Shown here in pieces: positions 6,501-44,000 of a stretch of DNA of 64,000 bases (position 1 is the first letter of the stretch; each line of letters opens with the position of its first letter). The DNA is taken from the NCBI GenBank assembly GCA_963971405.1, contig OZ020484.1, positions 36,106,770 through 36,170,769 of the forward strand. The letters are read 5' to 3'. Position numbers and translations under genes: made by a program. The stretch comes from Psococerastis gibbosa. Taxonomy: Eukaryota > Arthropoda > Insecta > Psocodea > Psocidae. The notes beneath the pieces were generated by a model. That model had not been told where the DNA came from. It did no database searches and worked only from the letters and a program-made list of their open reading frames with translations.

Positions 6501-9500
6501 TTCTACGTGCGATTGCACCGCAGTGAAGGAGGATATGCTCGGGGTCCTCCGCTCCTTCGTTACAGAATCTGCATGCTCTAGACTCTCTGACACCTATGTT
6601 GGTCAGATGTCCATTCAAGTTGCAATGCCCAGAGAGGAATCTTGTGATCACACGCAGATGTCTCCTGTTCATATTAATGCATACTTGGGCTCTTTTGCGC
6701 TGGTGGCTTCCCAGGAGCATTTTGGCTTGCCGAAGGCCCGGCAATGAGGTCCAGTATTCAGCCACTTTCAGGTTCTCCTTGCCTTTAACAAATCTGCGGG
6801 CGAGGGTTTCCCCGACACCGCAAAAAGGTTCGGGTCCCGTAAAAGGGGAGGTAGCTCCCCTTTTTGCAAGCTGGTCAGCAACCTCATTGCCTTCAATGCC
6901 TGTGTGCCCAGGCACCCATATCAAGGTAACCTTATTCGCACCGGACAGTATGTCCAGTTTCAATCTACATTGCGATCCCTTAAGCTTATTTCTGTAACTA
7001 TTCTTCATGTACCTAGTTGGTTGATAAGTTCTGTCACGACTAAAACTAGGAAAAAAGTCAGTGAAATATTATATTTTGGAAAAATTTCTTTAATAATCGT
7101 GAAAAACAACAGAACTGTAAAAGAACGCAAGAAAAAAATATTCAAAATATCCAACTCCTGCGCGAATGCATACCCGAAGACGATGGGGCCAATCGCCTTT
7201 GGCGCTATACGCACTGCTTGCATGTCTATTTCCTTGACTACCTTCATAATGGTTCTCTTCAGCGAGTCCAAATTTTTATGTGTCTTTGCACAGGCTTTCT
7301 TCTCAATGATCTGCCATATGGAATAACAATACTGTGTACTTGGTTTCAGAGTGTGTGATGAAGATGGATACCTACAAGAAGGGCAGGGCTACGTTGTAAG
7401 CGACTACTACAATAGACCTGACCCAATTGTCGATAACTACGACGGCCTGATGTGTGGCCTTGCAGTGCAGCCAGCCAAAAAAGCTGACATGAACGTTGTC
7501 GACAGCATTTGGAAATATTTGTTCAAAAGTAAGGAAAAATAAATAAGGTAAATGGTAGATAGTTGCGAAAGCATGTTATTTTATTTTAAATTGGTACCTA
7601 GATAGGTCCCCTCCAGCTTCAAGGTCGCCTGAATACGTTGAGTTAAGTATCACTCGTAGCTAGGCCTAAGGCGCGGTTTCCACCGACCTCTAAGTGCAGA
7701 ATACACATACGGTGACGTGGTAGCAGACATTCAAGACTTAGGCGGGGTTTTAGTTTGTTTGTTTGTGATTTTACTATATGAGCATTGATCAATTTTAACT
7801 ATGGCAAAGAGTAAAGCAAAAATTTCCGTCAATGTCATTTGCATTCTACAATGAGAGGTCGGTGGAAACCCCGCCTTTATTAATGATATCTGCTACCACG
7901 TCACCGTATGTGTATTCTGCACTTAGAGCTCGGTGGAAACCGCGCCTAAAATTTTATATACTGTATGTTAAGGTGTATGTGGCGCAATTTTGAAGTTCAC
8001 CCACCGTTTATGAAGAATCAGTAGAATCCGGGATGATAGGCCGTGGCCATCCTGAAAGTGTACTTCCAACCGTTTCGTCAACATCTGCGGTCGACATCAT
8101 CAGTGGAACTGCGTAGACTTCTAAGATTCTATCGAGGAGGCTCAGCAGCAACTGTTGTTCCGAGACACAATCTTTAGAAGTCGACGCAGTTCCACTGAAG
8201 ATGTCGACCGCAGATGTTGACGAAACGTTTGGAAGTACACTTTCAGGACGACCACGGCCTATCATCCCGGATTCTGCTGATTCGTCATGTAACTCCCGCC
8301 GTGAAAGCCTTAGTCATTATATTGTTCAACGTTTAGTCCAGTAAATATGTACTTTACGCGGTAAGTTATGCTGGCCTCGCCATTAATTTAATTTTCATGT
8401 TTTGGGAGGGCTGAATCCAATTCTGTAATTTCGCAACAAAATTTTGAGGCGGAACATTGTCAAAAATTAAAATAATAATAATAACGCCTGTCCGTGGTTT
8501 TTCGGCTGTAGCTCGAAAATAATTTAATTTGTCGGAAACATATAATCCGATATCAAATCTTCTAAGCTCCTATGGTCCTAGACCTGATTTTGCTGAGGGT
8601 AGAGGAAACTTGCAGCATCGAACCCCGTAGGCTGGCTTTACTCCAAAATGACTCAAATGCACCCTGAATTGTAATGTAACAATATATTTTATTTTCAGGA
8701 ATGGAGCCTCCTGGCGAGGATTTGATGTGCTATGATTTTCAACGCGGTAGAGAATGGGACGTTCCTAATTACACAAAACAGTATGAAAACATTTGGGGAA
8801 TTAGACTAGGGTCATGGCAAGACTTAAGACGGGTCATGGGACTAGAGGTAAGCTACACTATTTAGTCCCGGTCCCACTATGGCTCTAAAAGTTTTAGTAA
8901 GGAATACTGGACGGCACCGCCATCTAAAAATGCATGGCGGTGACGCTGCTGTGCCGTATTCCTTACTGAGACTTTTCCAGTGATCATGGAACCCACCTAT
9001 ATACTGCATTGCAGCTGGTACTAATTATGGCTATATAGGTACCTCCGGTACAAAGTTCAAACTAAAAGAAATGAACTTTGGAAAGACAGTGCATCAAACT
9101 GAGATCATAATATACGCATACTAGTACTACGGCAAATGACGGACAGTGTTCACAAAGAGGGATTTCCACAATTTTTTATTTGACGAAAGGAAACATGAAT
9201 CTGGCGTCTTGTAATTCTCACTCGTTTAAAATGGAATTTTGGGAAAGTGGTTCTTTTGCTATGAGTAGCTAAGTTCAATGGATCCAACACAGAATTCGGA
9301 GGTGTCAATAGACAATCGTATTGAACTGATTTTTGCCAACTGTTGCTAGCCGTATCTATACGTATCTCGTAAGCTTCACTATGGTATGGACGTAGCAAAA
9401 TAACCCTTAGAAAGTAAATCAAGCCACGTAGGCTACTTCCATCCAACCAAAACCAGAACATTGGGTACTCATCAGGTAGCCTCTTGCAAAGACCTGGGGA

Positions 9501-14760: not shown

Positions 14761-15622
14761 AAGAACCGGTCCGAGTTTACTCGAACATGCTTTCCAATTT
14801 ATCAATTAGTAGTTGGAGAAAATTAGTAATTTCGTGGTAAATAATTTTCCTATGGCTAAATTTTCGATATCTGGGGGGGGGGGGGGTTGTCTACCTGACA
14901 TCACTGGAGGTGAGGTAAATTCTAGAAAGGTCAGACCAACACATTACCACACAGTAATAATGGCAGGGCACGCAATGCATTTGACCCTGAATTTTCATCA
15001 TTTAAATAAAAATAAAAAAATTCCACAAAACCAGAAAGTTTTTTGCGAAAGCAACCTGTCCGGCTTCGTTACTCAATTTAACACCTAAAACATGCCTGAA
15101 GGTAGAAATCACCGATCGAAAGGTTTAGCAGATAAATTATTTTTTAGTCATTTTTCATGAAAATTGAGTTATTTTTATTTTTTTACCCCCAGAAGCAAAC
15201 TATCAAGGAGCAAGCGACCCTATGCGTTTTGTTAACATTAATAACGACTACAATATATGTGAATATAAAAGAAATCGTTGGAGCCGTTTTTGAGAAATAA
15301 TTTTTTTAGACGTTTTTTTGGACTTTTTTGAGAATAAAACCCCCCCAAATTGAGTTTGCCCAAAATAAAAAAAATGGTCTCAAGGTATGATTTTTGTGAA
15401 CCTACATGCCAAATTTCATCACAATCGACCGAGTAGTTTGCCCGGAAATCGACGCACAGACAGACATACAGACAGAGCGACAGACAGACATTTCGTAAAA
15501 ACCACTTTTTTTGGTTCCTGGGACCTCAAAACGTGTCAAAACGTCAAACGTGTTGAAATCTTGGAATCAAAAATTTCGACCATCACAAAGCTTTCCTTAT
15601 ACTACGTATAAATTGGAAAGCA
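14761..15622 (+). repeat. GACA-repeat family, full-length copy
   Basis: Colinear with 9726-10580: same start AAGAACCGGTCCGAGTTTAC, 14-G tract at 14873-14886 at the equivalent site, CAGACAGAGCGACAGACAG region, and end TATAAATTGGAAAGCAAC. Visible differences are point changes and small indels, so the two copies are not very old. Confidence 0.8.
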
Positions 15623-16518: not shown

Positions 16519-19500
16519 ATGGATTTAAAACCAATATTGGATATCGTTGACATACAAAGTATTCGGAATTATCATTACACCATTCAAGGACTACTAGCGA
16601 CTACAGAATCAGAGAAGGCTGAATTACAAGGCGACTTCTTAGGCAGCAGTCGATCCAATGATCCTCTTATATCAGCGATACCTCGTTCTTATGAACCTCC
16701 GGACTCACCGCTGCTAGACAATAGACAAAATAACGTGTTTGTTATACCCCATGAGGTTCATGAGCTTCCCACCGCGGAAGAGGTGAACACGCCTACCGAA
16801 ACTCAAAACAATAAGACTGAAACGTGGCAGACTGTCTCATCGACAGCAAGTCATCCTTCAGGAAAGAGAAAGCAAAGAAGATATAGGTAAATAGCTGCTC
16901 GAAAATACTCATACAAGAATACTGATATAATTACAAAGGCTTTCACGGCCGGAGTTACGTGACGAAGCAGTAGAATCCGGGATGATAGGTCGAGATCGTA
17001 CTTCCAAAGGTTTCGTCAACATCTGCGGTCGACATCTTCAGTAGAACTGCGTAAACTTCTAAGATTGTATCTCGGAGGCTCAGCAGCAAACACATCCCCT
17101 TGCCCAAACAGTAGCTGCTGAGCCTTCGAGATACAACCTTAGAAGTCTACGCAGTGCCACTAAAGATGTCGGCCGCAGATGTTGACGCAACGTTTGGAAA
17201 TACGCTTTCAGAACGACCACGGCGTATCAACCGGATTCTACTGCTTCGTCAGAATACTGATGGCTCAGTCTTCACAAAGCACATTCAGTCTAATCTTTAC
17301 CGTCGGATGCCATAGGCCCATTAACAATAAGCTGTAGATACATATACAGTAAGTACATTATACAGTATACACCTATTATAAGGTGAAAAAAATTAAAACA
17401 GACTTTCTCTGTTTGGGTATATCCAACGAAAAGATTGTGGCATAATCAAAATTTTGTATGAAGTTTACCAACTTGTGTTTCAATAAAAAATTATTTCGAT
17501 CAGGAGTTCGAAGACAGAATTTGGATTATATTTCTTAGGTCTTAAAGTTCACATCATGTCACTTTCTGTCCATGCCCGACAATGCGACGCTTGTATTGTC
17601 TTGTATATTTATCGATTGAGATGGAAGTTAATATATATTGTTAATTTCAGAACGACATTTAGCAACTTCCAATTAGATGAATTGGAGCGTGCCTTCCATA
17701 AAACGCATTATCCAGACGTATTTTTCAGAGAGGAGTTAGCCTTGAGAATTGATTTGACCGAGGCTCGCGTTCAGGTAATCATGACTACCTACAGAAGACC
17801 TAAGTATAGCCTAAATCATAAAAAATCTTACCCCCCCCCCCCCCCCCAAGGAATATAACATTTATAGTAATATAATACTATAATAAAATAAGATTTATTC
17901 TCCACGCATCACATGGTTAATGCATGCGGTGAATTTAATTGAAGTAAGATTTCAATTTGATACATGGGACACAGCCTTTCAAAAGAAGAATAGCTCAAAA
18001 CACAAAGAATCATTTGGCAATCGAATACTTGACTTGCATCGTATATTGGTCACGGCTTACTTATTCATAGGCCTATTTCATTTAAATATTTAAATAAGAA
18101 ATCCACCTAACATTAAAAAAAGTTAGTAATTACTGTCCTTGTACATAATTTGTTTTCAACGCAGTAAAAATAAACACAAAACTAGAGCCGAGATACTCAA
18201 TTACTCAAGCAACAAGTACGAGTATGTACTTAGGGTCGTGGGGTGCTACGAGGCGTTGAAGCTACAGGCGCCCTGAGAGAATATTGTACTCAGATTTTAT
18301 GTTATATAAATACATTTAAAAAATTCGTGGGAAAGAGAGATGAAAATAACTTTTATGCGCTGTTCGATTATTATGGTCACAAATAGTAGGATTCTACCGT
18401 CAAATCAATCAAGTGGAATTCAAAATAGCACCCAAAAATCACCAGGTTTTTGTATTGTGCTATGGATGCTTCAACAGACAACCAGACTTGGCATTTACAT
18501 AAAAAATAGTTATATACGATACCGAAGTAGTAACTACGAAGTAATATTTTCCCTAAGTTTTATGTGGCTTCTTGGTTTCTTACTCAGACATTTAATACTC
18601 TGTTATTACGCTGTCACTAGCGTATTACAAATAAACTGTTACCATTTAGTACCCGACCACGATGGGATGGCACTCGGAACCTTCGGAACACTTATAAACT
18701 TACTTACTTACTTACTTTTTCGTGTCCAGGCGAACATCCCAAAATCGGGTGAAGTCGTAGGCAGCACTGTTGGCCTGCCATAGGTCATCCTTCGTGCATT
18801 GGACCGGACATAGGCTGCACTGGAACAGGTGGTCCATATCCTGCCTCTGACCACACGAGCACATGGTGTTGCTTTCGTCTGTCTGGCCCCATCTCGCCCT
18901 ATTGGTTTTCACAGGGGCTGCGCCGGAGCGGAGTTGGTTCAGCACAGCACACTTATAAAAACCTAATGAACTCGGTATTCCGCTTATAAAAGTTTTCGCA
19001 TAAACAAAGTGTTCCAAAAGCCATCCTACCGTGGTCGGGTAGTATATATCGGTACGCACAAGACTCAAGAGAAAGAAAGATATAAAACTATTCAAAAAAC
19101 TTTAACAATAACCCAGGAAAGGAACAGGTTTGGTTCCAGAACCGACGAGCGAAATGGCGGAAACAAGAAAGGCTATCGGAAAGGACTGAGCACAGCCCAA
19201 TACAATTATCATCATCAAGTAAGTAACAAAACAAGTAATACCGACCCGCCCATAATACGAAGACACTTGGTGAGGCTTCTTTCTTAAATGCAGATAGGGC
19301 TTTTTCGTCATACAAGAATCATTTCATTAGTAGTATAATTTCACACTTAATGATACCAACTAGCAAAGTGTAAGATATTTATTTTTATCATGAAAGAAAA
19401 TGCAGAAGCCTGGCAGATATAACTGAATGACAAACCGACACTAACAGAATTAGAAATTCAATACAGATACAACAGTATGACGGCAAGAAGCTATATAGTT

Positions 19501-21820
19501 ACGCTACGTTGAGTTGAGCCATATGTCACAGCCGAAAATTCACGGCAAGTTGACTGAGCCATACTGTTAAAGTGTTACACGAACAACAGCAATCTTACAA
19601 ATGGTATATGCCATAGAAGTAAAGAAACTTTCGTATATAATAATACGTAAGATGACTGTTGTTTGCTTGCACAGTATGTCTCAGTCAGCTTACCGTGATT
19701 TTTTGGCTGTGTCGTATGGGTCAACTCAGCGTAGCTTTACTATGCCAGTCCGATTTCTCCATATCGGAAAATACATATAAAACCTAGTGTAGCCTACTAG
19801 TATTCTCGAAGTTCTGATTTTATACCCCAATATGCACAAACCATTATAACAATATAAAAATAAATTACCATACATTCCAAATATCGAATCAATGCTGACC
19901 AATTACATAAATACGATGTCACAAATCACATGGCAATAACTAATTTGTACTATTATAAGTAGTTTACTCCAGATTTTGTAATAATAATTTCAGGGAAGTT
20001 CTATAGACAACCGGTACTGTGGATACTTGGTAAACCCAGCTAATTAACCTGAGCATTCAAGATCGGAAGAACTAACAGGAAGAAAGTATGAGAGATAGAA
20101 TTGTATAATAAAATTCATGAACACTTTCTTTTCAGCCGATTTGCCAATATCCTGTGGAGGGGATGACTCTGACCCGGTGCAAATGCATTCTGAACATGCC
20201 AGTCAGACTTTCGCTCTCAGTAAGTGTCAATTTCTTTATTTACACAGTTTATATAAAATTATCATCAGCCATTTTTTTTTTTTTTAAACTTTTTACAGCA
20301 TGTGTGATATCACACCCGAATAGAATAGAATATGACATTTCTGGCCCTGATTCTTACGTTTCCACTGGCACAATGCTAAGCATTGAGTTTTAACAATTTT
20401 TATCTTAAAAAGTGGTGTACAACAATTGTACAATATTGAATAGCTAAATTTAATTTGTAGCCTACATAGTAATTATTATTTGTAGGAGTCATTGCATTGT
20501 TCTAATAAAGGCACATTATTAATTTAACAGTTAAGCTTAAACAGACAATATTAAGAGGATATGGAACGTAGATATTGGTCACTCCTGGTGAAAAATTAGT
20601 CAGTTCTATTTTATATATAATTTACATATGCTATGAAGATTTGGTCACTCCAAGTTGAAGAAGACCACTTCATACACAATGTCACAGGGTATTTTTACTT
20701 TTTGGTGCTGTTATGTCACCATGAACTGAACAATACGTGAAATTTTAAGTTAATATGAAGTTCAATAAATAATTACAACGCCATAAACTATTGTAAAAAT
20801 ACCCTATGATATTGTATATGAAGTACGGTAGTCCTTTACAACTTCTATTGACCAAATATTTATAAGTTATGTAGTCAATTCAATAAAACATAACATCCAA
20901 TTAATCTAGGGGTGACCTATATCTACGTTCCAAATCTTATTAAAATGTTATTAACGTAAGTTTTAAAGGGCTGCTCTGTTGAAAGCAATGAAAAACAGGA
21001 AAGATGCCCAAATATGCATAACACAGAGCACACTTAAGATGTGGAAAAGGGGGATGAATAAAAAATAATTAAAACACTTACTACTTAAAAGACTAGACGG
21101 TCCTGGCGCTGTCCATCTGTGGTTTGGATAGTCCGAACTTTCAGAAACAACTGCTTTACCCCTCACCTGCCAATTAAAACAGCATTAGAACTTAGTAATA
21201 AAGTAATTTAAATTTTTTTAAATAAAATACAATACTGGCAGAGAAATTACAGGGAAAATTTTCATTCCTCCTTCACCATGAAATTACACACCGTAAGCTT
21301 TCGGGCTGATTCCGAACAATCCTGCCATTGAAAATTAAAGCTGTTCTTTGCTATGAGTAGTCTTCCTTCAAATTTCAATTGTCAGAAGTAGGTTGTCCTT
21401 AATGTGTTAAAGGAAACTGTATTAAGCTCAGGTATTCGAAACCACTGGGTTGGGACGGCTCAGAAAATCAATTTTGGCTAAGTGTAAGATTAATTTTTCT
21501 GAACCGATTATAGCCGTAAGGCAACATCAATCTCTCAATCAGCAGGAATGCTAAGCACTTAATAAGCCACCATATTGTAGATGGGAAGCTCATAAGATCT
21601 GTTTCCACAATAAACTAATTTGTACTTTATAGGTGCAACAGCTACAGAAACATTTAGTCCGACGATTTTTAACATCGAATGGGGCAGTCTTAATCCATTT
21701 ATTTTGAGGACAGACTTGGGAAGAAACGCACTAGAAGCCGACTCAAATTCGATGGCTGGAGAAGCGGATTCGCTGAGTCCTGACTCCATTGATATTATGC
21801 AGTTAAAGCAACACAGCTAG
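16519..21820 (+). CDS. Pph13: Paired-like homeobox transcription factor, Pph13/aristaless type
   Basis: Exons 16519-16886, 17651-17774, 19128-19218, 20136-20219 and 21633-21820 join in phase to 284 residues. The start is the first ATG of the frame. The homeodomain begins [20 protein letters not shown], continues [20 protein letters not shown] and ends [16 protein letters not shown], with Gln at homeodomain position 50. [11 protein letters not shown] is shared with aristaless and Pph13; the [16 protein letters not shown] stretch fits Pph13 best from memory. Pph13 is a nuclear activator needed for photoreceptor opsin and rhabdomere genes in Drosophila. The homeodomain is split after RVQ, as in many paired-like genes. 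The tail is acidic and Ser-rich ([20 protein letters not shown]); no OAR motif is seen. The last exon lies antisense in an intron of the RNase H1-like gene. Homeobox is certain; orthology is moderate. Confidence 0.9.
16935..17250. mobile_element. Palindromic element with hammerhead-like arms, copy 2
   Basis: Same structure as 8012-8311: AAGGCTTTCACGGCCGGAGT at the left end, then inverted arms with GATGTCGACCGCAGATGTTG (minus, left arm) and GATGTCGGCCGCAGATGTTG (plus, right arm). Both hammerhead cores are decayed: the right arm has CTAAAGA and GCAA. The loop differs from copy 1. It lies in intron 1 of the homeobox gene. Confidence 0.6.
18699..18948 (-). mobile_element. 5'-truncated LINE tail with (AAGT)n end
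   Basis: Minus-strand frame with [20 protein letters not shown] and [19 protein letters not shown], the C-terminal Cys region of a non-LTR ORF2. The 3' end in element orientation is an (AAGT)n microsatellite at 18699-18715, as in LINEs with simple-repeat tails. ACACTTATAAA at 18688-18698 and 18949-18959 is an 11-bp target-site duplication. It is antisense inside intron 2 of the homeobox gene. Confidence 0.88.
20299..20393 (+). CDS. Possible alternative terminal exon of the homeobox gene
   Basis: An acceptor TTTTTACAG precedes 20299. Joined to the exon ending at 20219 in the same phase, it adds about 31 residues ending [10 protein letters not shown] and a stop at 20391-20393. AATAAA follows near 20503. 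Using it would give a 253-residue protein in place of the 284-residue form that uses 21633-21820. Phase and signals fit, but no motif supports it. Confidence 0.35.
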
Positions 21821-24800
21821 CCGTCAATGCATTCTAGATAGCTCAACTAATTTTTATGGGTGACATTCATTACATGGCATCTTTACGAAAATAAATTATT
21901 AATGGGAATATTTCCAAATTGTTAAAAAATAACACCGGGGTGAGAGTTAATCAATTACTTTCCCAGTCCAGAGTCCTTATATTGACAGAAAAGCTTCTTG
22001 AACACCTAAACTATATTTGAAGTGTGATAATACACAATAGATTTTGTCTTGTAAACTATCAACATCAATCAACATCGATAAAGTAAGTCCTATTCCTGTA
22101 ATACGTCATCTGCTTCTTCCTTTTAGATTATTTTATTTTATAGATTAACTAGAGCTAACAAAAACAATAATTGTTATTATTATTTTATTGTGTATTAACA
22201 AACTTTAGCCTATATACTATATATCGAGATATGGTCAAAGATTGATTTGGCCAATATATAGCCACTGTGGAACGGGAATGTAATTGATTAGCTCTCACGC
22301 CCTTTTTTTAGCTCTTACAATTAACCCATTAAATGTTTGTATTGGATTTGTATTCTATGATGAAAAGAAGTATGTGAAACTTCCTTACCTGCCAACGCTT
22401 CATAGGCTAACTGCCTTGCCTTCTCAGCCCCAAATACAAATAAATCCGGCGCCACCAATCTCTGTAAAAAAAAAAATAATAATAATAATAATCATCCTAC
22501 CAGTTCCGTCCGATTTAAAACATAAAAATATAGAACTGAAAATTTAAATAGAAAATATTAAATGTCATACTCAGGGGTGATTAACAGTATACCTAAATAT
22601 TTAAGAGCAAAGTGCACCCCCCCCCTCCCCTCAATTTGCAGACATCATTTTGATACATGATTGATAGGCGGGTATTCCACCGGCGATTTTACTTCAAATT
22701 TGATTTTATCATTGACGTTTGTTATCTTTTAAGGAGACTATTATGTTGATACTTAACTTATTTATTATAATATTATAAATTAAGTTATAAAACGGTAGAG
22801 AATTATTAATGGTGTCTGCTACCATATTATAACATATTTTATAATAGATAAGTTAAGTATCTACATAATATTCTCCTTAAAACAAAACAAACGTCAATGA
22901 CAAAATCAAATTTGAAGTAAAATCGCCGGTGGAATACCCGCCATATGATGCAGTCACTAACACCGATTGGCCACAGTTTTGGAACACCTTCCTCCGGACG
23001 CCCTCAACAGACACCAACCGTTTTTATAGAAATCAAATTCGATAATTGTGTCGTAGAATCAGATTCAGAACAGATTATATTGATCAGGGAAATAGAACAA
23101 CGCTATACCCAAACATAACACTTAAATTTAACATTACAACTAAACATTAACTACAAAATTTTAATTAGCCGGATATACACTCCCCAGTCCCCACTCCCCT
23201 TGAAGGCCGCCTACGTGACTCCCTCCATTTGGGTCTGGCTATAATGTTCACGGCACTTTACTGCATGACCAGACGGACACATATCATAATATATCAAAAT
23301 GCAGAGAAGCATCTCTGTTAGTTGATGTAATATTTGTGGCAGCTTTACGATCGATATTCCATGTTCCGATTGCCTTGTAAAAACAACCCAAAAAGGAGGA
23401 AACTATTATGTATAATAAGCATTCTTGAGCTGGGCCATTATCAAACGCCATGTTTTTAGCCATTGTGGAAACAAAATGCTTTATGTTGACTCACATGATG
23501 TGCAGTGATGATGTCAAGAGAACATAATCTACCCTTTGTACTTTATTCCTTTAATCATTAGTCACACGGAACTGACTGGAATTGTCAAGAGCTTGTCGGG
23601 ACATGCAAACACTTTTGCTCGGATCTCTTAAGCATTGGCTAGAGGGTTGGACGGTTATTGGATAGCAATATGCAATACCAGGACGACTAATCTCACAGTC
23701 AAATGTCAAATATAACACTTGATAAATGTAATATTTAATAACGCAAAAAGCCCAAAAATCATATATATATATATATATATTTAAGTCAAACGCTTGCTTA
23801 AATAAGTACATACCCATTCTATAGCCATCGATGCGATGGCTTTTCGCAATTCCCTAATTTCCTTCCTATTTTTTATAAACGCACCGGATTTTTTCCTCCA
23901 ATGCCGGGCTTTATATACGTTGAGTCGCTTTATTACATTATACACATAAGTCGAGTACGTATATAGAAGTATTCTGTTCATCCCTAAAACAAAAATAAAA
24001 TGTGTTAGGGAGTTACTTCGGGTAAAGGTTTACTTAATCTACCCCATCTGGACACAAATTTGGATCAAAATGCATATAAAATGGAAGGTAAACGCCCCAT
24101 TAGCAAGACATTTTCTGTTTTAACCATAGATTGCGAAAAAAGACACGTTCCTTCCATATTCCAATATTCCAAAAAATCTCATAAGCAATATGTAATACCT
24201 ACCAATGAAAAAATTCGACATGACATGTAAGGAAATAAGTAATCTTTTAAGAGGAAGCTGGCTTGAGATTGGCCAGCCCTGGATCACCCCAAAATAGATT
24301 GGTTTATACATATTTGCTTTCCAATATATACGTAGTATAATGAAAGCTTTGTGATGGTCATAAATTTTCGATTCCGAGATTTCAACGAATTTACACGAAC
24401 CAAAAAAAGTGGTTTTTACGAAATGTCTGTCTGTCTGTTCATAGATTTTCCCGGCAAACTACTCGGTCGATTTTAATCAAATTTGGCATGTAGGTTCACA
24501 AAAGTCATACCTCGGGACCATTTTTTTTTATTTGGGGCTAACTCATATTCTCGGGGGTTTTATTTAAAAAAAAAAACCCAAAAAACGTCCAAAAAAAATT
24601 ATTTCTCAAAAACGGCTCCAACGATTTCTTTTAAATTGACTTATATTGTAGTCGTTATTAATTTTGACAAAACGCGATGGGTGACTTGCCCCTTGATAGT
24701 TTGCTTCTGGGGGAAAAAAAATAAAAATAACTAAATTTTCATGAAAAATGACAAAAAAATAATTCTTCTGCGAAACCTTTCTATAGATGATTCCTACCTT

Positions 24801-27800
24801 CAGGTGTGTTTTAGGGGTTAAATAGAGTAACAAAACCGATTAGGTTGCTTTCCCAAAAAAAGTTTTTGGTTTTGTACAAAAAATTTTTTTAAAGAAATCA
24901 TATAAAATTCAAGCCCCAAACATTGTGCGCCGTGTCATTATTATTAACATATTTACTATGAAATAACTCATTATCTCTAATGACTAACAGATAAATTGGA
25001 AAGCATGTTCGAGTAAACTCGGACCGGTTCTTTTTATTTTAATTAACAATTAAGTTATAATGATTTGGTCAGTTCAATTAAGCAACGGACTATTTCATCA
25101 TACGTATAGTATTTCGAAGATTCTTTTAGTTTTTGTGAAAATGCTTTTTCGTAAAACTGATACTGATTTGCCGAATTATCGCATTCATGGAAAAATTATA
25201 ACAGGTTATTGTTAATTGTTTGAGTTAAAGTTTTTCCATGAACCTTTCATAGACAAATTTTAGTTCTCAGTAAATTTCTTGAAAGAACAGCATTGCCAAA
25301 AATTAAAAATACCATTAAGCATGGTGTACGAAATAGTTTTCTACATTTTGAATGGACTGAAACTGTAATAACATGTTTTATAAATTTAATAAAAAATAAA
25401 AAATGCAATAAAAACATGCCAATTTTCCAAGTTCCACATCCTCGGAAGAAAAAAATCCAAAATATTAAATAAACAGAAGTTTTGGTGGCAAAACCCTCAT
25501 TACACCGATTTTTCATCTACATACTTGAGCTGTACCAAAAAATATAACATTTTTAACACTATTCCGCATTAAATAAACGACGCTATAAGTCAGACTTGGC
25601 ATGTAATTTATAGAATTGGACAATGAAACGTGCGTTTGTTACTGGATTAGAGTTGACAAAAGTTTCATAGATTTAATTTTTCCAGGACAGGGAACAAAGA
25701 CTTTTATAATTTTACAAAATGAACGATTTACCTGCAGCTTTTGCGATTTGGACTGCAATAAATGTGGCTTTAAGGCACAGCGCTCGAGTATTAGGCTCTG
25801 TCTCATGATTCATTAATTGGGCCACGTTCCTGCAAAGAGAAAGTCACATAAACATGCGTTACGAGAAAAACTACCACACACTAACAATCTGTGTGGATAA
25901 GCTTTTGCTTTCATACTTAGTACAAGGAAAGCTTTGTGAAATTTTTCATTTCGAGATTACAATGGATTTACACGTTTTGAGGTCCCAGGGACCCATAAGT
26001 GATTTTTTCGAAATGTCTGTCTGTTCGCCGATTTGTGGGTAAACTACTCGGTGGATGTGGAAAGAATTTAGCCTATAGGCTAATTTTGCTAACTCGATTT
26101 GGCGGGGTTTACCGTCCAAAATCTAAAAAAAAATGCTTAAATTCTTTCTCAACAACGGCTCCAACGATTCACATATATTGCAGTCGTTATAAATGATAAA
26201 AAAAATCTATAGGTCGCTTGCCCCTTGAAAGTTTGATCTGGGCGTAAAAAAATAAGAATCAATTTTCATGAATAATGACTAAAAAATAAATTTTCTGTGG
26301 AACCTTTCTACCGATGATTTTTAACTTCAGATATGTTTTAGGTGTTTAATAGAGTAGCAAACCTGAACAGGTTGCTTGCCCAAGTAAAGTTTTGGTTTTT
26401 AATTAAATAATTTTTTTAAATGAAATTATGGGTACCTAATTCATGGCCATGCCCTGCCACTATTATTGTGTTTGCCCTGCCCATTCTTGACGATACAATA
26501 GTCCCATCGATAATTCAATGCTTTGGAATAGTGAAATCGAGGAAACCGAAATTTTACTCTGGAACAATTATTTACCATGGAAATATTACAATACCTCTCC
26601 AAATTGATAAATAGGAAAGCATGTACGGGTTCAATCGTACCGGATCTTTTATGTGCATGGAATTTATTCTTATTATTTCTTCTTTCATCTTAAGAGGCGT
26701 GGAGACCGCAGACGGGATGTTGATACCAGCATGGGCGACCAAGTATCAGCGGCTCTCCACTGGGCTGTCAGGTGTTGAATGGCCAGTTCTTTGCCGAACC
26801 TCATTTAACTATCTGGGACTATAGCATGTTCCTCACTGAATTACTTACAGGGGGTGTCTTTCTCCGAACCACACTCCTAATGCGCATGCCCCTTTCTCAT
26901 CCTTCACTGAACTAGTGTATACTTTTACTATGTCTGCAGACGATTCATCGCACTCGAATTGTATAAATTGCTTTTTTTCTGTCTAAAACAATCGACAATA
27001 CTATTTTAAACAACAAAAAAGGAAAATGTTTTATTTACTGCCCCAAAAGAACTTGAGAGAAATAGTCATATATATTAATCAACGCGACAACTGGTCACTC
27101 GAAACTAGATATTATTATTTTGTTTTGTAGATGGTATTTCCAGTGCATGGTACCCTAATTAGTGGGCGGTCTCAGTGGATCTGAGCATCATCTCATTGCG
27201 GTACGTAACGTATGAATTTTATTACTAAACAGTGCATGATAATATGTCTACGGAACATCTACGTAATAAGCTACTTACAATATTTGTTGCAGGTGCCTTT
27301 GTTTCCGACTTTTTGCACTGCTGACTGCTTTTTGTAGATAAAGCAGATTCTGTTTTACTAAGTCTTTCTGTTTTAACGCACAATTCGGTTGGTCCTGTCG
27401 CAGATGTAATAAATTGAACAGAATCATCAGAATCAGTGGGATCTACTGATCTGCTCAAACTGGAAATAAACCGTACTATTTTATAATTGTACACAAATTG
27501 ATAATATGTAATTTATTAATTAACTGCATTCAAGAGGCTGACAATGAAGCTAATGACAGCACTCATCTTACCTACGAGCATTGCCTACTGGCTACTGCAT
27601 TTTCCTACATGCAATGGCTGTCAATGAATGGCGCGAAACGACTAATGCAGCTGCTTAGTCTCTCAATCAATGATAAACCAACCTGCTCTGAGAATGGCAC
27701 AAATTTTGACAAAATTCGTGGCCTTCGATGGCATAGTGTTAGCTTGTTCGTACTTGTGCGAAGGCGCCCATTCCATTGACCGGCTAGGGCTATTTCCAAA

Positions 27801-29698
27801 ACGGTGACGTGGTAGCAGACACTCAAGACTTAGGTAGCGTCTCCACCGACCTCGCATTGCAGATTGCAAGTGACATTGATGGAAATGTTTGTTTTTCTTT
27901 TTATAGAAATCTATTAAAATGTTTGTAATTAACATATCCCATGAAGCCATTTTTTTAATTTTAGTTTGTTTGTTTGTGATTTTATTGTATGATCATTGAT
28001 CAATTTTAACTATGGCATAGAGGAAAATAAACATTTCCGTCAATTCTGCAATGCGAGGTCGGTGGAAACGCCACCTAAGTCTTGAGTGTCTGCTACCACG
28101 TCACCGTTTTGGAAATAGCCCTAGCCGGTCAATGGAATGGGCACCGAATCTCTACACACCATCTGATTGGAACGTAACTCAACACAGGTACTACCTACAG
28201 AGTCGACTGAAGAGGTTATGCGGTTACATCAATTGAATTGTTTGTATACGATTAATTTTTTTTAATCAGAGGTTCCAGCACCCTATCCCATAATGTTTGA
28301 AAATTACAGGCCATTGTATGTTCACGGACAACTTTCTGTTTTGGTGTGGGCGGCTAGATCCATTGAATACTCCGCTAAAAACAATATTGAATGCTTCTTA
28401 CCTTTTATATAAATTTTCCAAAACTATCAGTCGTCTTTCCAATTTTTCGAAATGGATGGCGCAAATCCTACAAGGGTTACACTCTTTACCGGACGCAGGG
28501 ATAGGTGAATCCGTTAACACAGCTGTTCCACAATTGGTTTCAACAGTTTCATTAGTATTGTCATGTTGACTCTCGGCGCATTCTACCTCAAGGTTAGGCC
28601 CAGTTACTTCTTTCGCACTATCTACTAGTTCATTCTCTTCATTGGCATGCATAGGGAATTGTGCCTTTTTTCGCAGATGCTCAGAAAAATTATAATTATA
28701 AAATTTAGAAGATGACAGTCTCGATATGGCTTGAAATTCGCTAGTATTTTTTATTTTATCACTTATGGATATATAATTAGTGCCATCTGTCTTATATTCT
28801 TGAACAGATTTCTTGTTTGAACAATTACTATAGTCTTCATAGTAAAACCTGCTAGGCCAGGGAAATATTTTTGAATTAGTGTGTTTCAAGATTAATGCAG
28901 TTTCAGCATTTTGTTGAAGGGCAGCTTCTTCGTGGAAGGGAGCAGCTGTATGTCCATTTCGATTGTCTGCACACTGTTTACTTGACCGCTGTTTTTTTCT
29001 GGTGCACCGAATTATGTCTTGACAATTATTAATATTCTGTAACAACCACATCACATAAACAATATTTTCAATAAATAAGTCATTAAAAGAAAAACAAACA
29101 GTGAAGAGTAATAGACCGGGTAATAACATGTGCGGCATAAAAAATTTCAACACTTCAAAATAACTAAAAATGAAAAATACGTCTTTGGTTAATTTAAAAA
29201 ATATTTACAAGAGGATGTGCGAAGTGGTTTACTCGATAAGTGGATGACTTAATAGTGAAAGTGGTTGTTTTTTATTAGCATTCTTGCTATTTCTCCAAAC
29301 ACTACTACTACTACTTATCAAAGCTATTTTCAAAAGTTAAATCAGTTAATTGTTAGGAGTCATAGCTACAGCGGATAGCCGATTATAGCCTAGAAGTACA
29401 GATAGGGCTAGGCACGGCAGACACTGACGGAAATAGAAGGATATTTAACTTGACAAGTAATGACGGGACAAAGAGCGGCATGGCAGCACTGAATACCGAA
29501 GTGTCTGTACTGTATATAAATATTTCATGCGTATCAGTTGAATAATTATACTAGCAACTAGTCACAAGCAACACCGCTAACCATAAGACATTGCAAACAT
29601 TGACATGATGAAGCCATGAAGGCAAAGGCAGGTGTCTAGCATTCCGGTTAATATTTTCTTACCCTACGTCTACGACGAATAATCTTTTTATTATCCAT
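21156..29698 (-). CDS. RNase H1-like protein lacking the catalytic residues
   Basis: Exons in transcript order: 29698-29663, 29036-28402, 27459-27279, 26982-26849, 25829-25732, 23983-23814, 22461-22389, 21166-21156. All join in phase with GT-AG borders to 445 residues from an ATG (MDNKKIIRRRRR). The C-terminal 145 residues follow the RNase H1 fold: IVKVYTSS, GVWFGERHPLNVAQL, NTRALCLKATFIAVQIAKAA, ILLYTYSTYVYNVI, HWRKKSGAFIKNRKEI, IEWRLVAP, FGAEKARQLAYEALA. Against RNase H1 the four metal-binding acids are replaced: VYTDG by VYTSS, RAEL by RALC, TDS by TYS, GNEEAD by GAEKAR; the active-site His of GHSG is also gone. No N-terminal hybrid-binding domain is evident; that part is low-complexity with CNPCRIC and a short coiled-coil-like ERRLIVLENLYKR. 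RNA/DNA cleavage is not expected. Function unknown. The short last exon is the least sure. Confidence 0.82.
22667..22942. mobile_element. PIF/Harbinger-like MITE
   Basis: GGCGGGTATTCCACCGGCGA at the left faces TCGCCGGTGGAATACCCGCC at the right, with ATA on both flanks. Inner arms contain AAGGAGACTATTATG and GTCTGCTACCATATTATAAC. Arms are long and nearly perfect, so the whole element can fold into one hairpin. It lies in an intron of the RNase H1-like gene, just upstream of exon 22389-22461 in transcript orientation. Confidence 0.78.
24312..25035 (-). repeat. GACA-repeat family, inverted copy
   Basis: Begins TTTGCTTTCCAATATATACG and ends AACTCGGACCGGTTCTTTTT, the reverse of 9726-10580. Contains TGTCTGTCTGTC and AAACGGCTCCAACGATTTCT. 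The G tract present in other copies is absent here. Confidence 0.78.
25903..26650 (-). repeat. GACA-repeat family, diverged inverted copy
   Basis: Starts TTTTGCTTTCATACTTAGTA, runs through ACACGTTTTGAGGTCCCAGG and AACGGCTCCAACGATTC, and ends GGAAAGCATGTACGGGTTCA near 26640. It is more diverged and shorter than the neighbouring copy at 24312-25035. It sits between two coding exons of the RNase H1-like gene. The following bases to 26845 show nothing I recognise. Confidence 0.7.
27764..28147. mobile_element. Long-arm hairpin MITE inserted in another repeat
   Basis: Left arm GGCGCCCATTCCATTGACCG, TAGGGCTATTTCC, GTGACGTGGTAGCAGACACT; the right arm is its complement ending CAATGGAATGGGCACC. Arms exceed 120 bases and contain an inner element with GCATTGCAGA and TTGATCAATTTTAACTATGG. 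The host repeat (CGTACTTGTGCGA ... CTCTACACACCAT) is seen uninterrupted near 46155-46195, and GAA lies at both junctions. It lies in an intron of the RNase H1-like gene. Confidence 0.75.
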
Positions 29699-30700
29699 CA
29701 ATCAAAATATAATGTGTAGGTAATAATTAATTAATTATTGACACCTCGTGAGCATTGTTTCTTGCTTATTTTATTTTATTTTTGTCGATAAACAAATACA
29801 TTATACAAAAGTGAAATTTGAAAAACGAAAGGCGGAAACCATGGAGTAAATCTGAGTTAAAAAGATAAAAATTAATTGATTTATTGTTTTTTATCCAAGA
29901 TTTCAATATAAAATATATATTTTTCTCAATGATTAAAAAAGTTGAATGCAAAAGCATCACACAAATTATTGAAATTTATTTTTTAATTCAAGAACCCCTC
30001 TCATCTCCGTGTTTTTTTATAAACACGTGATCGTGGTAAATAAAAATCATGTCATCTGGTTGACAGCTGTTTTTGTTTATTTAATTTTATAAACTGTGGC
30101 TAAGAAAAACAGAATTGTCATGGTAGGCATATTCGTAAATATTAAAATGCACTAACTTAAAATGGAACTGCCAAATTGCCGATACTGTTTTAATCAAGCA
30201 TGTGATACGATATTATCAATAAGTAGCCTACCCACTTCCTCTACCGGCATTTAAATTTTGCACATTCGCAGTGGCAATTAAAGACAGTCTAACATTGCGT
30301 TGCCACAGGCTGTTTCGAACTGGGTAGAAACTCTTTCATTTCCTTAGACAAGGTGCGATCTTTGGCAGTGTACGAAATACTTCGTCGTCTACAGAGCTGT
30401 GGTTGGCAGTGAGTAGCAATCTTAAAGATTTACACATTAACCTAAATGAAACTATTGGTCATAATGATGAAACAGCTAACTTTTACTTACAGCTATCATT
30501 ACATTAGCCTTATCTGCTTTAAATGGACAGTAGCGATTTTAATTATTATCCTTAATAGGCCTAGATACAGCAGTAGACCAGGCTATCCTATAATCTCCGG
30601 CTACGTCCTACATACTATTGTTTATTCAATCAGTGCTGTGCTGGCTATTTATGCATACCTTACGTGTGTATATTTGCAGCGACTGTCCCACGCCATCAGA
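29699..30700. promoter_or_regulatory. Shared upstream region of two divergent genes; 5'UTR exon of ECHDC1
   Basis: The RNase H1-like start codon (29698, minus) and the ECHDC1 start codon (30701, plus) face away from each other about 1 kb apart. A donor GTGAGT at 30409 and the acceptor TTTGCAG before 30680 allow a non-coding first exon ending at 30408. No ATG lies between about 30304 and that donor. A bidirectional promoter is inferred from position only. No TATA box or CpG island stands out. Confidence 0.4.
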
Positions 30701-33067
30701 ATGTCAGTTGTGAGATCATTAAAAGAACAAGCGAAAAAACGAAGTATATACAATGGAGATCAACTGTCCCTAACTGAAGCCCGCTCGTATTTTGCCCAAT
30801 TTACTGGCGGATCTGTGGATTTAGAAAAGGGAGACAGTGGAATTGCAACTGTGACCTTAAATAACCCAAAGAAGAGAAATGCTATTAGCGGTAAGTGGGT
30901 TTATGACGTTTATATGTTAAGTGTACTTGGATCGTCACAGTTTCAATGAGAAGCGCGCCTGGGAAGAGATTTTGGTCTACCTATTCCATTTACGTATTAT
31001 AAACAACATATATATATATAACATATAACACAACCCCGAGAAAAATTGCCTCCACAATAAATGCGCGAAACATGAAGTAATTTTGACTAGAACAAAGTGG
31101 CAGAAGGCCGAAGGGAAGAAAATATGGTTCGAAATGGAGATTCCAGATAGCTCCACTTAAGCTACAATAATATTGACTGAACGCATCTTTTGAGAATAGG
31201 CTATTCAGAATGTATGGATGGATGGTGCATACTGCATACCGGTACCGTACGTGATTAGTTGGCTCCGATTTCAGGAGCGGACATTACGAAGGAGGAGTAA
31301 AGTGAGCTTTCAATGGATCAGTTGTGCTACTTATTGTTTCATTGCATCGTCTGTATTCATAGGTAAGATGATGGGGGACTTTTTGGATGTCGTCGAAGAA
31401 CTTGAACGCTGGGAAGATGGGAAAGGAATAATATTGAAAGGTTTTGGTGGAAATTTCTGTTCCGGAGGAGATCTCACCCTGCCCCAAAAAACAGGTTGTC
31501 CAGAAGGGGGCTATAATATGGCAACAATTATGGATCATGTTCTTACCCACTTTAATAATCTACCTTTTGTAACTGTAGCGCTCGTAGAAGGATGTGGTAA
31601 GTAATCAGAAACTTTAAAAGAGCCTAAGCTGTGATAGAGTTAGTCCATTAGTCTCGAATCTCAAGTGCAACGTTTATCTGAGTGGTAATTTTCCACATGG
31701 GCAAATTTTGGGCCTCTCACAACTAACCCATTTGTAAGCTGTTTATTACTTCCTGTTTAGGAGCACTTGGTGGCGGTGCCGAGATTAGCGTAGCATGTGA
31801 TTTCCGAATAATGTCACCAGATTGCCGAGGAATCGGATTTGTCCATGGTCGTATGGGCATTATTGCAGCGTGGGGCGGTGCTAAAAGGCTCGTCGCAGCC
31901 GTTGGATATCGTCAAGCCCTTGAAGTTATGTCTAGCGCCAGATTATTTTCTCCTAACCAACTTCTAAAAATAGGACTTGTGGATGAGGTATGGGGAGTCT
32001 AAACTTATGCTTGCCAGGTTATCATTATTAAGAGACAATCGTAAGTGGAAATACCTAACAAATTTCTCATGAATTATCGAGAATGGTAATAAATATCACA
32101 TCCCCTAGCATTCCTCTAATTTTTGATACCCGTCTATAACACCGATCGGCCACAATTATTGAACTTGACTTATGGAACAAATTACACCGACCGCAATAGT
32201 GATGGTAATGGTGATATTGACGTGGTAGCAGACATTTTTAGACTGTCTTTAATGTCTGCTACCACGTCAATATCACCATTGCTATCGGTCGTCGGTGTAA
32301 TTTGCGCCTGTACAAAACATGACTGGTGAGGCAGGGGTAGAGTTCAAAAACTGTGGCCAATGGGAATCATACGACAGCTAGTACATAGTGACTTACATAT
32401 CGTAAATCAATATGTAGGGGAGTTATACTTCTTCAAAGGGATTCGACATTTATTTGGTCTTTACAAATAAAATGCTTTATTTAATTTTGAAAATAAAGCA
32501 TAAAATACTTTACAGTACGGTAACGTACTGCTTTAATACGGTAACCATTCTTAGTAATTTGGTCGCTTAGTGGAAGCTAAATTGGTAGCAATATAGACAC
32601 AAAATACGATAACCAATGATCTGAACCGGAAGGTGCCCTCCTTGCCGGTCTTGCCCTAGCCTACGGTCTGCTCTTGGCCTGTTATGTACTTTAACCTTGA
32701 ACGTTGGGCTGGTAGGCGACTTTCACAAGGGACCACTCTTTTTTTTAACTCATCCGAATCTAGTCCCTTTTTTTTTAAAGAAATTTTAATTTTTTTTTAG
32801 ATAATACCTGCCGAATCAGACAGTATCGAATACACAGAGGCCTGGTTGAAATCCAGAACATCTTGTTCAGCAAGTGTTGTACAAGGACTAAAGCTTCAAA
32901 CTCTTTTAGCTCATCATTCCCCCGAAGATACAGACATTAGTAATCGATTATTTGCTCCATATTGGGGAGGTAAAGATAATCGAGCAGCTTTATCAGCGAG
33001 AATTAAGCATCATTCACCGGTCAACGGGGTTTCCGAACAGCCGGCTAATGATATGGGAGTAATGTAA
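30701..33067 (+). CDS. ECHDC1: Ethylmalonyl-CoA decarboxylase (ECHDC1), crotonase superfamily
   Basis: Exons 30701-30890, 31363-31596, 31761-31987 and 32801-33067 join in phase to 305 residues. Start ATG 30701 follows the acceptor at 30679; the frame is open further up but the splice site argues against using that. Landmarks: GGSVDLEKGDSGIATVTLNN, GGNFCSGGDL (oxyanion hole), ALGGGAEISVACDFRIMSP, GFVHGRMGIIAAWGGAKRLV, APYWGGKDN. These align well with human ECHDC1, a cytosolic metabolite-repair enzyme that decarboxylates ethylmalonyl-CoA and methylmalonyl-CoA made by side activity of acetyl-CoA carboxylase. One extra residue seems present before ALGGGAE (EGCG), at the exon 2/3 junction, compared with the usual G-x-A. 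AATAAA follows the stop near 33082. Intron 3 carries a palindromic repeat. Confidence 0.93.
32135..32368. repeat. Hairpin element in ECHDC1 intron 3
   Basis: Inner arms GATATTGACGTGGTAGCAGA and TCTGCTACCACGTCAATATC are perfect complements around a loop of about 20 bases. Outer parts AATTACACCGACCG and CGGTGTAATTT, and CGGCCACAATTATTGAAC with GTTCAAAAACTGTGGCC, extend the fold. It carries the same GTGGTAGCAGAC block as the MITEs at 7670 and 27764. Confidence 0.72.
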
Positions 33068-41000: not shown

Positions 41001-44000
41001 ACCCTTGACTAGGGAGCTCCGGGATCACCTGCTGGAAACGCTCTCCGAAGCATGGCTCGAATGGACTCGAACCAACAACCTTTCGAGTGACAGTCAGAGT
41101 CGTTATTTGCAAAATATTACGATTTTTAGTAGGTAAATTTGAATGTGTAATGAATGACGATCTAAGCACTTTGCAACATATTTGGTTTGTCCCCACGTTC
41201 CTTCATATGCATAAAAACATGTCAAAACGTACTCCCTAAGATTATTTCCAGTAACAGAGCACAAATACGTCCCAAGAATCGAACACTAAAGCAAAGATGA
41301 ACTTTGAGTACCCCATCCTTGCGATGACCATAATGGGTTTTCCGAGCACTTCCTTCGAAAGAAGCAAGGAAATCTAGCAGATGTAACAGAATTGAAGAAC
41401 AAACACCAAATTACCAATTCCTTGTTTTGACTGAAATACACAAGAAAAGACACATCAACTTACATTCTTGTTTAAGAAGTGAGACGTTAATAGACCAGAA
41501 AGGTGAACGCGCGGCATGTCGAGCCTGTAAGACGTGACGACAAAGTCGCCGGGCGAGACGTGTCAGCGGGGTCGTGTGCAGATAGAACGCGGTACGCGTC
41601 TTCATGATGGGTCGTGGCGAACCCGCTCGCAGCATCATGCCATGCGACGTGGCGTAGTGCCGGACGAGGTGCGCCTTCAGCTTGAACTCCTTGCCGCAGC
41701 TGGCAACATTGCAGCGATGAGGACGATGCGACGCCGCACCCCGTTCCTCGTCTGACACGCTCCCTGACTTTTTGCGGGCTTCTAATTCAGCATCACCTAA
41801 AGCAAAAAAAAAAAAAATGAATTAATAGACATAGACATGACTGGGTGTTGCAACCCAAGACCTGCCAGTTAAAGGACTAGAAGCAAACTCGTTGAATATC
41901 AAATATCCTGCTTCAGCATAACATAGTTAAATGCTGGTATTATGTACTACATAATGCTGCAATATATCCTGATGTTTGTTTACATTACAAATAGAGACAC
42001 TGGGAGAGACAAGTCTTCTCTTACCTTCAATCTTCGCTATTTATAGTATATATGTACAACCCAGATTCAAAAAGGTTGGGCAACCCTTATTCACGATGCA
42101 TTTCAGTTTCTATCTCTGTCAATTCGAATAATATATCATTTATTTTAATATAGAAAGTAGCCTAACTATTCCTCAATCAAATGAGAAAAAATTCTCCTTA
42201 TTAGGTTTAAAACCTATCGAATACTGCTTTGCTCAAACATATGCTGAAATCATCAATTCAAAAAACCTGGACCACTACGATTTCAATATTTTGTTATAGT
42301 GCCTTTTGCATTAATAACTGCCTCAATGCGACGGGGCATGGAATATACAAGAGCGACACAATCATCTGCAGTGAACGAATCCCAAATTTCTAATAAAATG
42401 GTCCTCAGTTCGTCCTTGGTCTGTACAAGAGTGGTCCTCAACTTCTTAATTTTCCCCCAAATATTTTCGATTGGGGAAAGGCCAGGGCTCCTTGAAGGCC
42501 AAAGGAGAGGTTTAACATCATTATTTTGAAACCATGCCTTAGCGATTCGGCCGGTGTGGCAAGTTGCGCCGTCTTGCTGAAATATAAAATTCCCGTTCGA
42601 CACCATCTTTATAATTAAACTGTCCTCCAAAATATTAATGTACGCCTACCCATTAACAGTACCCTCAACAAATTGAAATACACCTGTTCCTGATGCACTC
42701 ATACACACAAACTTCACGGTTTTCTTGATACAGTCGGGCTTGATATTCGCTTGATATTCGTACTACGCGCTTAGATCCAGCAGAATCCAAAGTTAGTTCA
42801 AATCAGGCCCCATCGCTTTAAATGATCTTTTCCCAGTCCTATTCAGTCCAATTCACCCTCTCTCTTGCCGAAGCAAACCTCCTCTTTATCTGTACAGGTG
42901 TCATTAGGGGTTTCCCCTTGGTAGTGTAAAAACCATAGCGGGCAGAATGGATTTGTCTAACTGTTGTACTCACAGAACCTGGGTTATTGGACAATGTTGA
43001 TTAGTTCCAAGCTTCCTTGAGCTCTAGAGCAATTATGCGTTTGGCTTTAAAGATTTTTTCCTGTCCTGGCGACTTGTCATCTTGCGTGGCCGCCTCGTCG
43101 CTTTCCCCCGGATCAGTGGTCTTGGCGTTTGCACAGCGTACCAAAATATTGTGGACGGTAGACTTTGATAATTGGAGGATTCTCTTTATCTCTCTCTCAC
43201 TTTTTCTTGCTTGATGATGGAAAATTAGCAGTTTCTGAACGCTCTTCGCTACAACAGATCCTCTTGCCATTCCTCAGTGATAAAATGCAGATGGGGAAAA
43301 ATAACGTGTCTGATGTTTTGAAAATATGTCTACACACTGCATGTAAGCAATGTGCATTTTTTTTATGCTTGCCTGGATGTTCACGGAAAGAATAACGCTA
43401 AGTGGTCCAAGATTTTTGATTCGGTTAATTATGCACCTTCTCTGGAAAGTGTTGAGGAATCGATGAAAAACTAACAGATCTAAATTGAATTGATCAAATG
43501 CCATTAAGGGAGAATCTGGCTAATTTCCAGAGTAAACTCAACGACCTACAATTTGTATTAACAGAGATAAAAATTGAAATGCATTGTGAATTGAGGTGGT
43601 CCAACCTTTTTGAATCTGGGTAGTATATTCAAGTATACATGATAGCTGGGGCCTATTTGTTACGCCAATCATTTTAGAAAAATATACGAATTGTTATTTA
43701 TTTATTATTATTATCTATTATTCCTATACTTATGATTAGTATAACTATAATTTAAATTCTCAGTGCTTACTAAGTTTTGAGGGGTTTTTCAGTCCTCCAT
43801 ACTTCTTCCAGTAAGACCAGCAAGCGTGACACAATTTGTATTGCATGTGAGAAGGACCCCACGCATACCACTGATTTGAGTTAGTAGCTAGAAATTCAAC
43901 AAATTAATTAATTTGAACTGAACATTATATTTTCACACATCATATCATAGGGTACTTTTAATATATGATGCTATAGTTTTCCTAATTTGGTGACATATTA

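Follow-up and report, generated by a model that had tools for sequence, protein, structure and literature searches.

The closest described relatives of the gene reported here are the metazoan RNase H1 enzymes. As described for the fly enzyme (PMC7657459), tight binding to RNA/DNA hybrids comes from a conserved hybrid-binding domain, the linker comprises 115 amino acids, and the catalytic domain with a short linker, in the absence of either hybrid-binding domain, still binds an R-loop substrate. Dead RNase H folds are also already known, in PRPF8 (PMC9629490) and in the tether domain of retroviral Pol (PMC9040795), and a pseudoenzyme, as the term is used in PMC10211241, is a protein in which conserved catalytic motifs are absent by sequence. 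Here, we analyse a 64,000-nucleotide stretch of the genome of the psocodean insect Psococerastis gibbosa (assembly GCA_963971405.1, contig OZ020484.1, positions 36,106,770 to 36,170,769; hereafter, the window) and describe a minus-strand gene at 29698-21156 that carries an RNase H1-like domain, has its catalytic motifs replaced, as in a pseudoenzyme, and was probably preserved, at least until recent times, for a function other than catalysis.

The gene comprises eight exons that join into a single frame of 1338 coding nucleotides (445 amino acids and a TAA stop), separated by seven introns, all of the GT-AG type (14 of 14 splice sites), with phases 0, 2, 0, 2, 1, 0, and 1 (Table 1). A search of PDB with the joined protein (phmmer) matched residues 301-440 to human RNase H1 (2qk9_A) with an E of 4.8e-11 over 140 residues, and matched two further Ribonuclease H1 chains with E of 6.9e-11 and 2.5e-10; the remaining two of the five matches at E up to 1 are a Ribonuclease H (0.023) and a Ribonuclease HI (0.8). 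No retroviral RNase H is among these five matches, insect retroelements lying outside the collections searched. The isolated domain passes the Pfam RNase_H cut-off (30.2 bits versus 25.8), the full-length protein is without a Pfam match at E up to 1, and the score with NCBIfam's ribonuclease HI model is 29.9 bits, below the cut-off of 160. As judged by sequence, the protein is a genuine RNase H1 homologue and lies at a great distance from the canonical enzyme. The original prediction, made from the letters of the window, had proposed eight in-phase exons without a stop and an RNase H1-like identity; the former is confirmed at every splice site, with its coordinates falling exactly on the ATG and the stop, and the latter is borne out by the phmmer match and by the Pfam score of the isolated domain.

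For residue-level comparison we used a pairwise alignment to the human domain, written by hand from the phmmer columns (43 of 138 positions identical); a pairwise MAFFT alignment gives 47 of 137. In the whole-family MAFFT alignments (34 of 129 positions identical to human) the first strands are wrongly placed; neither these alignments nor their conservation tables are used. The comparison set comprises 82 sequences, with none dropped: human, E. coli, and the best 80 of at least 591 pattern-matched stretches (585 confirmed). These 80 loci are all bacterial by title and were found via one handle pattern, making them a biased yardstick, in which W221, W225, and W230 are fully conserved as a consequence of the selection; four phage sequences served for one query (A2) alone. 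Positions conserved in at least 90% of the 82 canonical sequences are termed conserved. Scans for relatives of the window domain gave 28 pattern matches in viral contigs and 131 in genome contigs, none of them confirmed, and a scan of viral contigs with the human domain gave 7, again none confirmed; the sequence covered is viral, bacterial, and archaeal and has little bearing on insects.

The alignment reveals that the active site has been replaced throughout. In particular, the four catalytic carboxylates carry the substitutions D145S, E186L, D210Y, and D274R, and the loop histidine carries H264D; placing a one-residue insertion elsewhere would give C instead of L at E186. None of the four metal positions retains an acidic residue, whereas in the comparison set the four carboxylates are kept in 82, 82, 81, and 82 of 82 sequences, the one departure being N at position 210 in the human PDB entry. 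The loss of all four carboxylates and of the histidine of the GHSG motif, as read in the original prediction, is confirmed, and cleavage of RNA in RNA/DNA hybrids is predicted to be absent.

The five catalytic codons are at least nine base changes away from canonical. Under a two-parameter neutral model with kappa of 2 or 4, the joint probability of these nine changes with 142 homology-anchored codons open and the 12 splice bases of the introns between them intact does not exceed 1.2e-8 with kappa 2 and 1e-8 with kappa 4. Accepting any non-synonymous change at all five codons raises the value to 3.3e-5 (kappa 2) or 3.6e-5 (kappa 4), and including all exons lowers it to 1.5e-12 at best; we prefer the figure restricted to the anchored codons, because exons 1, 2, 3, and 8 were chosen for being open. 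In simulations of the 146-codon RNase H part, the probability of finding no stop falls from 0.0455 at d 0.2 to 0.015 at d 0.3. The low joint probability makes neutral decay a poor explanation; on this calculation, loss of the catalytic residues most likely preceded any release of the protein from constraint. Together with the intact spliced frame, this supports the earlier claim that the locus is not a simple dead copy.

The remainder of the domain has a pattern that fits a retained hydrophobic core. Specifically, 34 of the 39 positions that are hydrophobic in at least 90% of the comparison sequences stay hydrophobic, versus 36 of 100 other aligned positions. The basic handle has a net charge of +11, compared with a mean of 4.0 (standard deviation 1.2) and a maximum of 7 among the 82 comparison sequences; the net charge of the whole domain is also +11, a value reached or exceeded by 1 of the 82. 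In the N-terminal region, a basic start (RRRRR) is accompanied by a CNPCRIC...H segment and by a leucine-rich stretch. At 268 amino acids, the run without a stop in which exon 2 lies is the longest of those listed for the window; in 40 first-order Markov windows, the longest runs reach 157 on average and 251 at most. At E up to 10, residues 1-284 have no match among PDB chains, and pieces of the N-terminal region have none among Pfam families.

The reading that we favour, with slightly less than an even chance, is that the gene encodes a spliced, RNase H1-derived pseudoenzyme that combines non-catalytic docking on nucleic acid with recruitment of partners through its N-terminal region. According to this reading, the ancestor would be a cellular RNase H1 and the descendant a spliced protein-coding gene; complete loss of catalysis while the protein was under constraint would have turned it into a pseudoenzyme; docking on nucleic acid, with low or altered specificity, would fall to the RNase H fold and its enlarged basic handle; and the long polar N-terminal region, with its basic, nuclear-localisation-like start and its cysteine-containing, leucine-rich segment, would recruit partners. 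The spliced open frame, the homology, the substitutions at the catalytic residues, the charge of the handle, and the lack of a detectable hybrid-binding domain in the window are observations; we infer a retained fold and, from the neutral-decay calculation, constraint after catalytic loss; nuclear location, nucleic-acid docking, and partner recruitment are guesses. Besides the homology, the splice sites, the neutral-decay figures, the hydrophobic pattern, and the handle charge, the retained N182 and N240 and the R-loop binding of the fly catalytic domain (PMC7657459) speak for this reading. Docking on nucleic acid as the mode of action is plausible but clearly short of even. In a more specific version, which seems distinctly unlikely, a lineage-specific RNase H1 paralogue would have become a dedicated non-cutting adaptor for nucleic acid: its hybrid-binding domain would have been swapped for a new, partner-recruiting N-terminus and its basic handle strengthened, and it would naturally antagonise or read R-loops, replication primers, or retroelement intermediates.

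Several observations weigh against this reading. The neutral model is one without rate variation and assumes a canonical ancestor; the hydrophobic-core figure has no neutral control; and the comparisons of charge and core use a yardstick that is nearly all bacterial and was selected by the handle pattern. Only two of nine substrate contacts are kept (N182 and N240), and seven are changed (N151K, Q183T, R179T, T181P, W221 to a gap, W225Y, and S233K). For H264 and for the six contact positions other than N151, N182, and Q183, the roles are those that we take these residues to have. For N151, N182, and Q183 the roles follow the description in PMC7657459, where the fly enzyme differs too at Q183. 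No hybrid-binding domain was found by Pfam on the N-terminal pieces or by tblastn of the human domain over the window, where the best match (E 1.2, at 15529-15612) lies off the gene and where a single-species query could miss a divergent copy. Finally, 2 of 12 active-site or substrate positions are kept, versus 18 of 42 other conserved positions, a difference that is not significant (Fisher p 0.17). The same test gives no significant support for active-site loss as a targeted event, so that the data also fit a protein that evolves fast, or under relaxed constraint, in general.

Loss of seven of the nine contacts with the hydrophobic pattern kept would also suit an RNase H-like domain that acts through partner binding other than nucleic-acid docking, and there is precedent in PRPF8, whose RNase H-like domain is described as a regulatory pseudo-enzyme domain bound by AAR2 (PMC9629490); however, a handle more basic than that of every comparison sequence is a better fit to a nucleic-acid partner, and we consider such a domain unlikely, if deserving of serious attention. 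That the protein acts as a naturally inactive RNase H1, staying on RNA/DNA hybrids or R-loops and so shielding them from the active enzyme, would be in keeping with its RNase H1 origin, its missing catalytic residues, the two retained asparagines, and the basic handle, as well as with the R-loop binding described for the fly catalytic domain alone (PMC7657459) and with the engineered inactive RNase H1 described as marking R-loops in yeast (PMC12134985). We nevertheless consider it quite improbable, given the changed contacts and the hybrid-binding domain that was not found; specific hybrid binding is less likely because in the fly it is this domain that gives tight binding. The suggestion in the original prediction that the protein could bind hybrids without cutting them is weakened: the contacts and the hybrid-binding domain speak against it, and the basic handle and the behaviour of the fly catalytic domain speak for it.

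Two further alternatives concern the state of the gene. A diverged RNase H1 relative that lost constraint too lately for a stop or a splice-site break to appear would fit the wide loss of conserved positions beyond the active site, and at d 0.05 the whole frame would be open with a probability of 0.06 and all 28 splice bases intact with a probability of 0.25. However, the five catalytic codons must have gone earlier, under constraint, so this account, which we rate as improbable, amounts to the favoured reading with a late death added. That the gene model is an artefact, with alternative or missed exons giving a canonical enzyme or with exons that do not form one transcript, is very improbable. 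Its opening lies in exon 1 (12 codons) and exon 8 (GEG and the stop), which have splice consensus and phase as their basis; against it, exons 4-7 are in phase with one another and, once joined, can be aligned along human RNase H1. In tblastn of the human domain over the whole window, the matches are exon 6 (1.3e-4), an RNase H fragment of the retrotransposon type at 6957-6856 (1.3e-4), and exon 4 (0.28), with the rest at E of at least 2.8, and no further RNase H1-like exon. The original prediction had named alternative exons restoring the four carboxylates (DEDD) as evidence that would count against it; this search of the window yielded none, with the limited sensitivity that it missed the gene's own short exons 5 and 7, which an overlooked canonical short exon should outscore.

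Within the gene model (Table 1), exons 1, 2, 3, and 8 have no detectable homology, and exons 5 and 7 are anchored only via the alignment of the joined protein, the human domain alone matching only exons 4 and 6. The frame of exon 2 is also open upstream to 29204, so that another start is possible and the first exon is provisional. The terminus in exon 8 is, we presume, near the end of human RNase H1. Two candidate polyadenylation signals occur in the 1156 bases that follow the stop, an AATAAA at 20235 (plus-strand position) and an ATTAAA at 20449; lying 0.7-0.9 kilobases off, they are weak evidence.

Table 1. Exons of the RNase H1-like gene in the order of transcription, with window coordinates.
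Feature	Coordinates	Strand	Evidence
Exon 1 (provisional), MDNKKIIRRRRR	29663..29698	-	ATG, GT donor, phase 0; without homology
Exon 2, polar N-terminal region, CNPCRIC...H and leucine-rich segment	28402..29036	-	In-phase AG acceptor and GT donor; Pfam and PDB searches without a match
Exon 3, linker	27279..27459	-	Splice sites and phase
Exon 4, RNase H strands 1-3, VYTSS for VYTDG, GVWFGERHPL	26849..26982	-	phmmer; tblastn E 0.28 alone
Exon 5, NTRALC for NxRAEL	25732..25829	-	phmmer alignment of joined protein
Exon 6, LLYTYS for LYTDS, basic handle	23814..23983	-	tblastn E 1.3e-4 alone; phmmer
Exon 7, APDLFVFGAEKAR for PGHSGxxGNEEAD	22389..22461	-	phmmer alignment of joined protein
Exon 8, final codons GEG and TAA stop	21156..21166	-	AG acceptor and phase

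The introns contain several repeats. Inverted-repeat elements resembling miniature inverted-repeat transposable elements are present at 22667-22942 in intron 6 (arms of 107 nucleotides, 93%) and at 27763-28145 in intron 2 (arms of 101 nucleotides, 97%), and related dispersed repeats, 74-79% identical, are present at 24453-24893 in intron 5 and at 26038-26420 in intron 4. No tandem repeats were detected in 20000-33000, and no Rfam family at gathering thresholds and no tRNA was detected.

Elsewhere in the window, a divergent gene with enoyl-CoA hydratase/isomerase exons lies at 30446-32002 on the plus strand (one piece matching Pfam ECH_1 with E 1.3e-6 and 28.4 bits versus 27; its first frame, E 0.091). 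Its first listed frame starts about 0.75 kilobases from the start of the RNase H-like gene, a divergent spacing at which a shared promoter region is possible. On the other side, a paired-type homeodomain is encoded on the plus strand in two exons, at 17487-17858 (Pfam Homeodomain, E 2.7e-12) and at 19086-19226 (by eye). A minus-strand frame at 6391-7068 encodes an RNase H of the retrotransposon type, in which, unlike in the RNase H1-like gene, the GHTG...GNEVAD motifs are intact, and a minus-strand open frame at 42283-42645 resembles, by eye, a fragment of a Tc1/mariner transposase.

In annotation, such a locus should not be labelled an RNase H1 enzyme, and the place of this gene among known systems follows from what it shares with each. 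In common with the metazoan RNase H1 proteins (human RNASEH1, fly Rnh1) it has a C-terminal RNase H domain, homologous to theirs and preceded by a long variable region, and it differs from them in its replaced carboxylates and loop histidine, its long matchless N-terminal region, and a hybrid-binding domain that was not found. Among the papers listed by our literature search, none describes a gene of this kind, which does not establish absence from print. The known dead RNase H folds are parts of larger machines, from which a free-standing example would differ. Specifically, the RNase H-like domain of Prp8/PRPF8 is, like the one here, a pseudo-enzyme RNase H fold in a cellular protein, as described in PMC9629490, but it sits in a large spliceosomal protein, and none of the PDB chains matched at E up to 1, five in all, is a Prp8. 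The tether domain of retroviral and some retrotransposon Pol proteins, as described in PMC9040795, is likewise a degenerated yet retained RNase H domain, but it is part of a polyprotein, whereas the gene here bears introns and has its best PDB matches in cellular RNase H1. The engineered, catalytically inactive RNase H1 reporters described in PMC12134985 are also RNase H1 without catalysis; they are designed and have binding intact, whereas the protein here is natural, with most substrate contacts changed and no hybrid-binding domain found. It would be a natural counterpart to the engineered proteins that mark R-loops, and through it the role of a non-cutting RNase H1 fold could be examined.

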